Below, piece by piece: positions 4,334 through 13,898 of a stretch of 64,000 bases of DNA. Source of the stretch: Flintibacter muris. Lineage in GTDB: Bacteria; Bacillota; Clostridia; Oscillospirales; Oscillospiraceae. The notes under the pieces were generated by a model that had not been told where the DNA came from, did no database searches, and saw only the letters and a program-made list of their open reading frames with translations. The stretch is from assembly GCF_943192995.1 (NCBI RefSeq), contig NZ_CALPCP010000008.1, forward strand, positions 1 to 64,000, read 5' to 3'. The stretch's first letter is position 1; the number at the start of each line of letters is the position of its first letter. Position numbers and translations under genes: made by a program.

Positions 4334-4379
4334 TGGTTGCGGGGACAGGACTTGAACCTGCAACCTCCGGGTTATGAGC
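4334..4379 (-). repeat. Left attachment site: displaced 3' part of tRNA-fMet
   Basis: These 46 bp are identical to 13853-13898, the anticodon-loop-to-CCA part of the intact initiator tRNA. After position 4379 the tRNA sequence stops and unrelated DNA begins. This is what integrase-mediated insertion into a tRNA gene leaves at the far end of an element. The pair 4334-4379 and 13853-13898 therefore defines a 9.5-kb island. Confidence 0.88.
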
Positions 4380-4666
4380 TGCGCTCCGAAGTCCGGTTTA
4401 GACGTTTCCAGCGCTTTCGGAGCCTATTTCATCCAGATTGAAATGCTTTCCCGACATTTTTGTTCCGTTGTCTCCATTGATTTTTTCCTGTTCTGGGTCA
4501 AGTTATGGGTCAGAAGGCATTGGCAGCTCAAAAATTGTCATGGAGAAAACAAAGGAGAGGTCCCGAGGATCAAGGAACTGGAAAAACCCCTGCATCCACA
4601 GTCCCCAAAGAAGGAGGATCAGAAAATGCAAAATCATATGTCGGGAGTCTAATTAGCGGCAAGTAA
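4380..4666. other. Inner left end of the island (attachment arm)
   Basis: No real gene. It holds an 8-bp inverted repeat (GCTCCGAA...TTCGGAGC, about 4384-4426), the arm-type repeat at 4494-4515, and an eight-codon frame (MQNHMSGV) behind a strong AAGGAGG at about 4610-4616, which may be the start of a deleted element gene. Confidence 0.5.
4494..4515 (+). promoter_or_regulatory. Putative integrase arm-binding repeat, left
   Basis: TGGGTCA-3-ATGGGTCAGAA recurs in the same orientation at 13749-13770, 20 of 22 bases identical. One copy at each inner end of an integrase-bounded element is the expected layout of arm-type binding sites for the integrase N-terminal domain. Confidence 0.55.
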
Positions 4667-6013
4667 TCAAGAAATCTTATCCGAAATGCATAACATTTGA
4701 TTAATCACAGTTATGATGTTCCCAATGGGAGTATCCAAATCACGTTCCAGCATTACAAGCAAATGATCCTGTTGGTCTGGAGTCAAAATAGATGAACTTC
4801 GGAGGTAAAACTTATTTCTTATCCATTCCAAATCTACATGGTCCGTGTGTTCTCCGGGGGCCGCATAGACCTGAGATTTAAGATTATTGCCATCCTTCAG
4901 TTTGATTTCCACCCATGCAAGCCGTTTTTCAGGAAACTGAGCTTCCATTTCAGGATCAACTACAAAGGAAAGCCGCCGCATCATATCCAGCACACACTGA
5001 TTATTGAGCGCAGGCTCTATAACCTGATCTATGCCCACATCTCCATAAACCAATGCAGATGCCACCGGCCAGGCAATGTTGTACTGGGCTTCATCTGTTG
5101 TTCGAGGTTTCATTTTGCTTAGCTGTGCAGCCGAATCAAAGGTATGCACGCAGACCCGCTCCACATCCTCGTGTGTGAAGGTATAGGCTTTCATAAGGTC
5201 GATACAGGCTTGTATGGGCTGATGAGCCCAGCGGCAGCAGGTAAAGGGCTTGAAATAGAGATTCATAATCTCGTAAATCTTGCCCAAGGAATCCAAGTGC
5301 TTCTGGTACTCCGGAGTTTCCAGCAAGTATCCACGGGCGGTGCTGCCTTCCAGGGTTTCCAGCGCTGCCTCTGCACCTACTAAAGCGCCAAAAGGTACGC
5401 CGTCTTTGTTCATGGAAGGATACTGGACCGATCGCATTACCGGGGTAAGAGGAGCATGAAACTCAGCCATAGATAAAGCATTGTTCATCTGTTCCTGCGT
5501 AAATCCCAGCAAACGTCCCATTCCTGCGGCGGTACCAAATGCGCCATATGTGCCAGTGCTGTGGAGATATTGATAGTGATCCTGCACTGCCAAACCACAG
5601 CGGATCGCCGCCTCATAGCAGACTACCAAGGTGGTGAGATACTCCCGGTAGGTGACATTTTCCTCCAGCGCCGCAGCCAGTACACCAGCCACGAAAGATG
5701 TTCCGGGGTGCCCCTTAATCATATTATGGCCATCATCAATATCAAAGGAGTTTGACGCATGAGACATGGCTACTACAGCGCCTAACAGGCCAAAATTCTT
5801 GTCACTGCCCACAACAGGAAGATTGCCGCCCTTATAGTAAGTCTGAGCAATGCGGATACCCGCCTGGAACTGCTGCCCCTTGCTGCCCAACAGCAGGGCG
5901 ATCATTAAATCAATACCGCAGACAATGGCGCGCTCTTGAACCTTGGCGGGGAGGTCTTCCCATGTGGTGTTGAGAATGTAGTCTTCCAGTCTATAATCGG
6001 TGATAAAATCCAT
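4667..6013 (-). CDS. MmgE/PrpD family protein
   Basis: A 448-residue member of the MmgE/PrpD superfamily, whose known members dehydrate 2-methylcitrate or decarboxylate cis-aconitate, and which also includes many enzymes of unknown substrate. Family signatures are SFDIDDGH followed by HPGTS in the N-terminal helical domain and HSTGTYGAFGTAAG about 50 residues later. I start at the ATG at 6013 (MDFITDY) because GAGGTG precedes it by seven bases; the frame extends to a GTG at 6034. It is the last gene of the five-gene island operon. No methylcitrate or itaconate genes are nearby, so the substrate is likely a different hydroxy or unsaturated acid; this is inference. Confidence 0.85.
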   Translation of the reverse strand: MDFITDYRLEDYILNTTWEDLPAKVQERAIVCGIDLMIALLLGSKGQQFQAGIRIAQTYYKGGNLPVVGSDKNFGLLGAVVAMSHASNSFDIDDGHNMIKGHPGTSFVAGVLAAALEENVTYREYLTTLVVCYEAAIRCGLAVQDHYQYLHSTGTYGAFGTAAGMGRLLGFTQEQMNNALSMAEFHAPLTPVMRSVQYPSMNKDGVPFGALVGAEAALETLEGSTARGYLLETPEYQKHLDSLGKIYEIMNLYFKPFTCCRWAHQPIQACIDLMKAYTFTHEDVERVCVHTFDSAAQLSKMKPRTTDEAQYNIAWPVASALVYGDVGIDQVIEPALNNQCVLDMMRRLSFVVDPEMEAQFPEKRLAWVEIKLKDGNNLKSQVYAAPGEHTDHVDLEWIRNKFYLRSSSILTPDQQDHLLVMLERDLDTPIGNIITVINQMLCISDKIS

Positions 6014-6093
6014 AATATACACCTCACTTTTCACTTAGACAGAAATATAAATATGGCTATCGTCCTTCTCCTCGTTTTTGGACAGAGGAACAT

Positions 6094-7569
6094 TTATTTT
6101 TCCCCAGCTTTCGGCTGTGTCAAATAAGTGGAGACCACCGCGGCAATCAACGACGCGACTACACCGACCCACAGAGAAGAGGCAATGGCATCCATTCCGC
6201 TGACGATCCAAGCAACAGTAAATACTAGCCCTACAGTAATAGTGCACAAAGCAGCCTTTCCGGTATATTTCTTCCAATACAGCGTCAGCATAGAGCATAC
6301 AGCAAAGGGAGAACCTAAGCCGGCCCATACCCAGCTAATAATTACACTGATTAATTCACCAGATACTACAAATGTCAAAATAACTGCAATAATCGCAATT
6401 ATTATCGTGACCGCCCGAGAAATAAAGAGCATCTGCTTTCCATCCAATTCTCCATTTTTTATTCTGGGCTTAATTATATTTTCCGATACCTCGCTGGAAG
6501 CCAGTACTAAAACAGAATCAGCGGTGGAAATCATGGCGGCAATAATTCCGGTAGTAAAAACAGCCGCCAAAACAGGGGGCATCAGACGCATGGTCAGCAA
6601 CGGAGTTACCTGCTCAGGATTATCCAAATTGGGACCCAGAATAAAGAAGCCTAACAAGCCAATAAGGATCGCACCAATATAAGCCACCAGAATGTAACTC
6701 ACAGAAATAAAACGCCCCAATTTAAAATTTTTCTGATCTCGAATACAAATATACCGCGTATTAAGTTGAGGCAAACCGCCCAGATAAGCCCAGCACCAGG
6801 AAAAACCGTTGCCGAAAACCATACCGGCCGCTAATCCTCTGGCACCGCCAAACATATCAAAATATCCCTCTGGAGCTTTAGTCATTGCCTCAGCAATTGT
6901 AGCAGCGTAGACTGCGTCTGGATTTGTTACCATTTCGATAATTGCTGCTCCGGGCACGCAAACGAGCATAGAAAAAAGGACAATAGCTTGCAGACAATCC
7001 GTATATACTACGCTACCGAATCCCCCATATAGAGTATACGGGATGACAATAGCCACTGTAATAAACAGCCCGGTTAGAGGATTGATTCCCAAAAGGGAAT
7101 TCAGTGTGCTTCCTCCTCCCAAAAACTGAGCCGCAACATAAACTGTAAAGAAAAACAAAATAATAATGCCACCAACAAGCCGGATCCGATTGCTCTGATC
7201 TGGAAACCGTTTGGACAACCAATCCACATAGGTATTGGCACCTAATTTTTCCGCATCCTTCCGCATTTGTCCGGATACCATAAACCACACAGCCACCGAA
7301 CCAATTACACTTCCGATTGCAGGCCAGAGCCCCAACATACCAGACAGGTAAATCCCGCCGGGCAAGCCCAGCGCCATATACGCAGACATATCAGTGGCAC
7401 GCTCTGAGAGCGCCGCCGCCCATCCTGGCACATTATGGCCCCCGACCGCAAAATCTTCGCTATTTTTCACTCGGCGACCCGCAACAAAGCCAATCGAAAG
7501 CAGGATGGCAAAATAAATCACTAAAACAATAACCGTCGAACTATTGGTTACATTAATTCCAGAAAGCAT
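6094..7569 (-). CDS. Sodium:solute symporter (SSS family, PutP-like)
   Basis: A 491-residue membrane protein that should bring a small organic solute into the cell with sodium. It has about 13 hydrophobic helices and the SSS signatures: GGHNVPGWAAALSERATDMSA near residues 42-62, where PutP has its sodium and substrate site, and AAMISTADSVL in the second half. PutP carries proline, but SSS substrates cannot be read from such motifs. Its place in the operon suggests that it imports the compound the neighbouring enzymes use. RBS GGAGG lies before the ATG at 7569. Gaps to neighbours are 80 and 122 bp, the larger one holding a long hairpin. Confidence 0.88.
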   Translation of the reverse strand: MLSGINVTNSSTVIVLVIYFAILLSIGFVAGRRVKNSEDFAVGGHNVPGWAAALSERATDMSAYMALGLPGGIYLSGMLGLWPAIGSVIGSVAVWFMVSGQMRKDAEKLGANTYVDWLSKRFPDQSNRIRLVGGIIILFFFTVYVAAQFLGGGSTLNSLLGINPLTGLFITVAIVIPYTLYGGFGSVVYTDCLQAIVLFSMLVCVPGAAIIEMVTNPDAVYAATIAEAMTKAPEGYFDMFGGARGLAAGMVFGNGFSWCWAYLGGLPQLNTRYICIRDQKNFKLGRFISVSYILVAYIGAILIGLLGFFILGPNLDNPEQVTPLLTMRLMPPVLAAVFTTGIIAAMISTADSVLVLASSEVSENIIKPRIKNGELDGKQMLFISRAVTIIIAIIAVILTFVVSGELISVIISWVWAGLGSPFAVCSMLTLYWKKYTGKAALCTITVGLVFTVAWIVSGMDAIASSLWVGVVASLIAAVVSTYLTQPKAGEK

Positions 7570-7646
7570 ATCAAATCCTCCTTATGCAATCTTTTACAAT
7601 ACAGCACTTCCATTCTTAACATTGTTCTAATCGCCTGGTAATAATT

Positions 7647-13730: not shown

Positions 13731-13748
13731 ACGCTCCAGGTTCCCGTA

Positions 13749-13770
13749 TGGGTCAAAATATGGGTCAGAA
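13749..13770 (+). promoter_or_regulatory. Putative integrase arm-binding repeat, right
   Basis: Partner of the repeat at 4494-4515 (20 of 22 bases identical, same orientation), lying just after the integrase stop codon and inside the right end of the island. Confidence 0.55.
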
Positions 13771-13814
13771 AATAACCGCAAAAATAAAGCGCACGAAAAA
13801 GTTCTGGAAAACAG

Positions 13815-13852
13815 TGAAAGCCCTCGGATTTCAAAGGAAATCCGAGGGCTTT
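13815..13852. terminator. Bidirectional terminator between integrase and tRNA
   Basis: A perfect 15-bp stem (AAGCCCTCGGATTTC and its complement) with a four-base loop followed by TTTTGG on the plus strand. It ends the integrase transcript and, in reverse, could end the tRNA transcript. Confidence 0.8.
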
Positions 13853-13898
13853 TGGTTGCGGGGACAGGACTTGAACCTGCAACCTCCGGGTTATGAGC
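13853..13898 (-). repeat. Right attachment site within tRNA-fMet
   Basis: The 46 bp identical to 4334-4379. It covers the tRNA from the anticodon loop to CCA, so integration keeps the tRNA functional by supplying the same sequence. Confidence 0.88.

Follow-up and report, generated by a model that had tools for sequence, protein, structure and literature searches.

Comparison with described mobile elements

According to the available part of PMC11389934, integrative mobilizable elements (IMEs) with an origin of transfer (oriT) and no relaxase are defined as iOriT elements. IMEs of gut bacteria with a MOBP3 relaxase are named in part of PMC6907783, and in tRNA-gene islands, as treated for Islander in an excerpt of PMC4383910, the ends are marked by a regenerated tRNA 3' end and a displaced fragment. 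The locus considered here is a 9.5-kb segment (positions 4334-13898) of a 64,000-nt stretch of Flintibacter muris DNA (contig NZ_CALPCP010000008.1, below C8); the whole stretch is referred to as the window. This segment is most probably a relaxase-less IME of the iOriT kind, i.e., a hitchhiker consisting of an integrase plus an oriT, which carries a metabolic operon as cargo.

Like iOriT elements (excerpt of PMC11389934), the window island is integrative and encodes a recombinase of its own next to an oriT-like block, and no relaxase or mating-pore gene was found in it. In contrast to them, its oriT is a predicted one of the MobP3/MobL type, and it has many relatives with interchangeable cargo at the initiator tRNA. 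As for the MOBP3 IMEs (PMC6907783, seen in part), relaxase-bearing relatives occur in the window integrase family as well, a likeness by family name alone, whereas the window island itself is without relaxase. The ends of Islander-type islands (PMC4383910, same excerpt) have their counterparts here; however, the window island sits in an initiator tRNA gene, is very small, and has relatives that are sometimes stacked in tandem. Among the matches listed from open-licence papers, neither a description of this element family nor cargo exchange at nick sites of integrative elements was found. Mobilizable genomic islands with oriT mimicry reportedly rely on helper-dependent transfer from a copied oriT, similar to the route proposed below, and are said to differ from the window island in relaxase family, host phylum, target gene, and size.

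An earlier note had described the segment as a metabolic island integrated in tRNA-fMet, and that reading stands supported. The proposed transfer route (an oriT without relaxase) and the possible swapping of cargo at oriT in related elements are additions to it, both drawn from sequence comparison.

Boundaries, target gene, and integrase

A tRNA-Met(cat) gene is reported on the minus strand at 13853-13928 by ARAGORN and by the Rfam tRNA model (64.6 bits), and its initiator type was judged by eye from the C1xA72 mismatch and three G-C pairs in the anticodon stem. The Rfam scan of window positions 1-20000 at gathering thresholds gives two tRNAs and nothing else. The 3' 46 nt of this gene (13853-13898), which reach the anticodon loop and are common to gene and element, recur at 4334-4379 (minus strand) with 46/46 positions matching and a spacing of 9,519 bp, exactly the perfect direct repeat named in the earlier note. 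The crossover thus lies in or adjoining the anticodon loop, and tRNA-fMet remains whole because the element supplies its own 3' half. Directly 3' of the gene, a repeat search gives a 16-bp perfect inverted repeat (13817-13852, minus strand), probably an element-supplied terminator for tRNA-fMet.

The insertion, which the earlier note had proposed to check at the loci of relatives, is confirmed by an empty site in a genome of the same genus (G005), where the left flank of the window is joined straight to tRNA-fMet. This locus aligns to window positions 2861-4379 (78%) and 13984-14182 (94%), and the junction of both alignments falls within the tRNA. When a longer stretch was aligned, the left match extended as far as position 1645 (78.7% over 2,769 columns); the right-flank match is short (~200 bp). 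The island is therefore an insertion, and the 4334-4379 repeat, its far end, is the host's displaced tRNA end, which excludes that this copy belongs to another element. Among 30 fMet loci retrieved from the genus, the 29 others have tRNA-fMet adjoining apparently the same tRNA-Leu (by eye; one stretch ends soon after), and Int-like sequence is present in the retrieved stretch of 9 of the 30, the window's own included, some of it fragmentary or just 29-36% identical. The fMet pattern used was recovered in 41 of 64 genus genomes.

A pattern for the 5' half of tRNA-fMet (up to two mismatches) has two matches in the host assembly, both at the window locus and 94 bp apart; therefore the window gene is probably the sole tRNA-fMet gene of the host genome. 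The first 27 nt of the repeat occur in five copies in this genome: two at the window locus, two on contig C59, and one on C12.

An intact tyrosine integrase (Int) of 390 aa with Phage_integrase and SAM_3 domains over cut-off is encoded beside the right repeat (12558-13730, plus strand), and arm-like repeats lie inside both ends, both as previously noted. The latter (4494-4515 within the unstranded left end 4380-4666, and 13749-13770 on the plus strand) are 22 nt long, 91% identical, and contain two GGGTCA motifs each according to the repeat search and motif count. This core is enriched after int across the family: the 130-nt stretches behind int at 75 family loci (9,750 nt) contain 91 copies, vs 30 copies in 84,639 nt inside int. 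The first 173 nt of the left end have 78.7% identity to the left ends of L009, L019, and L020. A tyrosine integrase with a tRNA target would also suit a prophage or phage-satellite remnant. However, none of the seven island proteins scanned (0/7) is a phage structural or packaging protein, in agreement with the earlier view of the cargo, and the scan of viral contigs with Int gives no relative, so a phage origin is extremely improbable.

The oriT-like block

Comparison of family members revealed an 87-nt covarying block between the cargo and the integrase (11923-12009, plus strand, with the inverted repeats on the 12009 side). In an alignment of 36 copies, 91.3% of 504 cells of the covarying hairpins are paired, and the covariation score equals 0.372 vs at most 0.115 with the pairing partners slid. 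Two models were used, R1 trained with the window copy and R2 built from 16 relaxase-adjacent copies only (11 from genome searches and 5 from Int-family loci), with the window left out. R2 nevertheless matches the window at 11923-12009 with 67.7 bits and an E-value of 4.7e-16, the next window matches being the opposite strand at this position (0.025) and an unrelated site (0.032). It also finds a copy in 31 of 32 other sources, most of which were chosen because they hold the block, and none in L053, where genes of a different kind are present (NikA/MobC-like and MobA/VirD2-like). At E<=0.01, R1 reports 15 copies in the host genome and 14, 5, 3, and 9 in G007, G011, G012, and G017, respectively (one G011 match is partial and weak); 45 loci were returned for these 46 matches, 20 of which contain Int-like sequence. 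Six of the G007 copies lie on one strand within 75 kb (G007:C1, 2053296-2128182), pointing to a long tandem array of elements of this type.

The minus-strand core of the block, TATCCTGC at 11944-11937, corresponds to the MOBP nick consensus (C/T)ATCCTG(C/T), and inverted repeats lie 5' of it, as in the oriT of a VirD2-like relaxase (PMC3772185, the part available). The predicted nick falls on the minus strand between 11938 and 11937 (5'-TATCCTG^C-3'). Folded as minus-strand DNA, the block is better than shuffles (z -3.8). Together with model R2 and covariation, this consensus marks 11923-12009 as a presumed oriT of the MobP3/MobL type, MOBL being a Firmicutes family close to MOBP (excerpt of PMC5313138).

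The position upstream of int in many elements and the covariation could also be explained by a structured RNA that acts, for example, as a leader of int, a terminator, or a regulator. The nick site of RelLS20, the MOBL prototype, lies next to an inverted repeat and has another sequence (same excerpt of PMC5313138), which speaks for this alternative too. However, Rfam gives no match on 11800-12560 up to E 10, the same block precedes relaxase genes with no Int match downstream in 3-kb stretches, the conserved core is the MOBP nick consensus (PMC3772185, as above), and the breaks between elements presented below fall at this core. A structured RNA in place of an oriT is thus regarded as very unlikely. 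A third reading, the block as a gene for a zinc-ribbon peptide (CPQCG), was dropped because the spacing between the conserved parts varies by single bases among copies. Taken as an oriT, the 87-nt block could serve as a sequence tag for finding hitchhikers that relaxase-gene searches miss.

The element family and its mobility

The Int search of genome contigs returned 171 related stretches, and the best 80 (79 distinct loci, 66-93% identity) were kept, many of them labelled Oscillospiraceae, Oscillibacter, or Clostridia. Two further integrase copies, with 93% and 92% identity, are held by the host genome (G000) itself. Bounded family members have a size of ~2.3 to 11 kb and differ in cargo, and attachment repeats are stacked in L047 and on C59.

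An element with similar ends and an integrase of the same family, but other cargo (element B), is present in G000 on C59, in the single-contig genome G007, and in two loci from metagenome-assembled genomes. Its S-layer-homology gene of 1,479 aa (L009:2605-7044, L165:7187-11626, L019:4880-9319, and L020:1039-5478) has 2-3 base differences in 4,440 between C59 and the three other assemblies. Core divergence was represented by transketolase-like genes beside the fMet locus (named by eye; the His-region gave no match in G007), which are 87% identical between G000 and G007. Near-identity of the S-layer gene against such a core points to very recent spread. As for the earlier claim that the element moves one catabolic pathway, element B in four assemblies supports mobility of the family, and movement of the window island itself, with no second copy of its exact cargo found among 295 genomes of the order, would partly follow from that of its family.

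Relaxases and the proposed transfer route

Among the pattern-matched block copies, 17 have a relaxase downstream (12 loci from the R1 genome searches and 5 Int-family loci), and the distance to the start of the relaxase match is 540-564 nt in 16 of them and 619 nt in one. Three of these relaxases were scanned and are classified as MobP3 by NCBIfam (265-356 bits, cut-off 150) and as MobL by Pfam. Three MobP3 genes of the host genome exceed the cut-off (on C44, C46, and C47), each with an R1 block upstream and with a coupling-protein match (PF02534, type IV secretion system) on the same contig, which makes the C44, C46, and C47 elements candidate helpers for the window island. No MobP3 match is present on C8, and no relaxase or mating-pore protein was found among the seven main island proteins scanned (small open reading frames, ORFs, left out).

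The 60 Int-family loci for which upstream sequence of more than 1.2 kb exists fall into three classes. The most frequent one (26 loci), to which the window island belongs, has a block at a distance of up to 1.2 kb and no MobP3 gene detected within 6 kb; a MobP3 gene is present at 14 loci, and 20 have neither by these criteria. Relatives that combine the same Int family, the block, and a relaxase are L021, L023, L065, L070, and L073. With its own integrase and a likely oriT but no transfer enzyme, the window island probably borrows the machinery of other elements. Int would excise it as a circle via the 46-bp repeats, and a MobP3 relaxase of another element in the cell would nick the block at TATCCTG^C. 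The nicked strand would then exit through the transfer machinery of the relaxase donor or of another element, and Int would insert the island into tRNA-fMet of the recipient, which the 3' half supplied by the element, probably together with the hairpin terminator, would keep working. By such a route, a single metabolic operon could pass from one gut Oscillospirales bacterium to another in a minimal vehicle of integrase, attachment sites, and transfer-start site, a vehicle that would be parasitic on co-resident MobP3 elements.

The same data could reflect an old mobilizable element that has lost its relaxase and is now stuck, with the oriT-like block as a relic. No relaxase was found in the window island, hairpin 1 of the window copy is imperfect, and MobP3 genes in 14 of the 60 family loci make relaxase loss a plausible route. 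In contrast, Int is open and of full length, the block without detected relaxase is the most frequent class, and element B, in which no relaxase was detected either, has a cargo 99.93-99.96% identical in four assemblies. A decayed island is therefore considered unlikely, and the island is preferably read as a relaxase-less element that can still be mobilized.

Several observations nevertheless weigh against this preferred reading. Block copies missed by the pattern are less regular, with 634 nt to the relaxase match on C47 and ~970 nt from the block to a relaxase-like ORF in L208 and L210, and the 20 loci with neither block nor detected MobP3 gene make up a third of those classified. Of the 17 block copies with a relaxase, 11 have the exact nick core and 6 deviate by one base, the nick sequence of RelLS20 is a different one, the first hairpin of the window block is imperfect as mentioned, and folded as RNA the block is no better than shuffles (z -0.34). 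With respect to the target, the tRNA-fMet 3' end, which a pattern search places within 300 nt after int at 38 of the 73 family loci long enough to judge, in support of a family target, is missing by this pattern from the other 35. Furthermore, L078 is bounded by a different tRNA-like repeat, and the host assembly, in 126 contigs, does not fix how the five repeat copies are ordered. No excisionase gene was identified in the island. Finally, at E<=1e-60 the M24-fold hydrolase gene of the cargo is found in 1 of 295 genomes of the order, its own, with no second cargo copy, and viral contigs give one unrelated stretch of 30% identity and nothing else.

Breaks between related elements at the predicted nick

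When element B of C59 is compared with those of G007, L019, and L020, the S-layer gene is 99.93-99.95% identical (4,439 aligned positions), and int just 87-92%; for the integrase of the host copy, values of 88-90% were obtained as well. Against G007 and L019, C59 shows 6 and 3 differences, respectively, from the left end to position 7043; the 1.5 kb leading to the predicted nick (7120/7121) are free of differences, and after a first one at +23 many follow. Two MobP3 elements of G007 (L205 and L209) are difference-free over 3.4 kb as far as -7 and diverge at -6, at -5, and again from +6 onward, and L192 and L195 have 1.6 kb in common up to +25. L022 and L199 form the mirror image, being different on the left side from -3 and nearly identical on the right, where the block differs at three positions and no further difference occurs as far as +706.

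Screening 69 distinct block copies with 1.5 kb on each side gives 20 pairs with shared 40-mers, 9 of which have a difference-free tract of at least 500 nt. Tract ends next to sharp divergence are located at -6, +23 (four element-B pairs), +26, +43, and +288 (L019/G007). In total, identity ends between -6 and +43 nt from the predicted nick in four sets of element pairs and two pairs switch elsewhere, within a small pair set whose first members were picked by a screen for left/right discordance around the block. Two pairs count against a strict nick rule: C59/L020, with four differences in the block, identity from there to +722, and a switch inside int, and L026/L028, with 97% identity on the left, 90% on the right, and no clean tract.

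These breaks suggest that cargo is reshuffled at or near oriT in related elements. Whether the nick site itself is the joint, in an integron-like reshuffling with oriT as the point of exchange, is close to an even question, with the answer leaning slightly to the negative. In such a model elements would be stacked in tandem in the order att, left arm, cargo, oriT, int, att, and a relaxase would start at the oriT of one element and end at that of the next. The resulting circle, with cargo from one element and the integrase or mobilization half from its neighbour, would be reinserted by Int. Three sets of element pairs, in which difference-free tracts stop at -6, +23, and +26, support this model, as does a fourth pair of reversed layout, whose common right side begins at about +43.

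Alternatively, the breaks may result from ordinary homologous recombination within the conserved 87-nt block, with no relaxase action involved. The block is conserved among otherwise different elements, the element-B pairs are identical to +22, i.e., beyond the nick, and other switches occur at +288 (L019/G007) and ~+723 inside int (C59/L020), all of which favour this explanation. However, the L205/L209 break has just ~10 nt in common after 3.4 kb without differences, and recombination between two oriTs by relaxases has been described (PMC4902927 and PMC3264647, each in the part available). Homologous recombination is accordingly taken as a serious possibility, though one held with less than even confidence. 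If oriT does act as the cargo joint, the way in which small islands gain new cargo could be tested with a single relaxase and a pair of oriT copies.

Cargo of the island and of its relatives

The domain scans bear out the regulator, importer, and four enzymes listed in the earlier note. A LysR-family regulator (10929-11831, plus strand) is divergent from the enzyme genes, which all lie on the minus strand together with the importer gene. The enzymes are an opine-type dehydrogenase (9540-10778; Octopine_DH domain; Protein Data Bank (PDB) entry 1bg6, N-(1-D-carboxylethyl)-L-norvaline dehydrogenase, 71 bits), a class-I glutamine amidotransferase (GATase)-like protein (8883-9527; Pfam; GMP synthase subunit A in PDB, 89 bits), a creatinase-like hydrolase of the M24 fold (7692-8846; Pfam; best PDB match creatine amidinohydrolase 1chm, 97 bits), and an MmgE/PrpD-family enzyme (4667-6034; Pfam; nearest PDB entry IDS-epimerase 2hp3, 81 bits). 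The importer is a sodium:solute symporter (SSS; 6094-7569), PutP-like and under the PutP cut-off. Tentatively, this cargo may be a LysR-controlled unit for import and breakdown of an N-substituted (opine-like) amino acid.

The opine-type dehydrogenase is 90-97% identical in six relatives of the same genus (99 genomes searched). The stretches around it contain an MmgE/PrpD match in five of the six (61-65%) and a LysR match in five (34-46%), and no match at E<=1e-6 for the symporter, M24 hydrolase, amidotransferase, or Int within the stretches fetched. Because the dehydrogenase occurs there without this Int, part of the pathway also lives elsewhere. In L131, the one relative stretch inspected closely, a TRAP/TAXI-type transporter follows, as recognised by eye from the ORFs, and it looks like the dehydrogenase-MmgE pair is the core and the importer is exchangeable. 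Among plasmids, 168 records match the dehydrogenase, the best at just 49.7% (two Enterococcus raffinosus records).

As for other family members, L053 carries a citrate-type transporter, two short-chain dehydrogenases, and a PucR-type regulator, and L074 an AraC regulator with a GH3 glycosidase. ABC transporter parts are found in L047, a PD-(D/E)XK protein in L028, and the S-layer-homology protein in element B.

Sequences flanking the island

The second match of the 5'-half pattern is an extra tRNA-fMet 5' half (13984-14026, minus strand; direct repeat, 98%), which adjoins tRNA-Leu 94 bp off the functional copy. The earlier note mentioned neither this half, nor the three repeat copies elsewhere in the genome, nor the oriT-like block. 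A 51-bp spacer beside the half (window 13929-14026) can pair with its D arm (DNA fold z -3.2). The arrangement does not recur in the other 29 of the 30 retrieved genus loci; the only like case, L034:11314-11449, has the same spacing and a spacer with a T-arm-like hairpin by eye.

The left flank (600-4333) has 38% G+C, compared with 59-61% for the regions to the right, and encodes a DNA methyltransferase of the D12 type as well as a protein of 232 aa with no Pfam match. Given its low G+C and the methyltransferase, it may be an older inserted element layer; positions 1645-4333 are kept adjoining tRNA-fMet in G005 as well. At the contig start (window 1-600) lies a DDE transposase-like ORF, named by eye. 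Contig C59 opens with 82 nt (L009:1-82) that are 98.8% identical to window positions 519-600, so this transposase-like repeat probably broke the assembly between array pieces.

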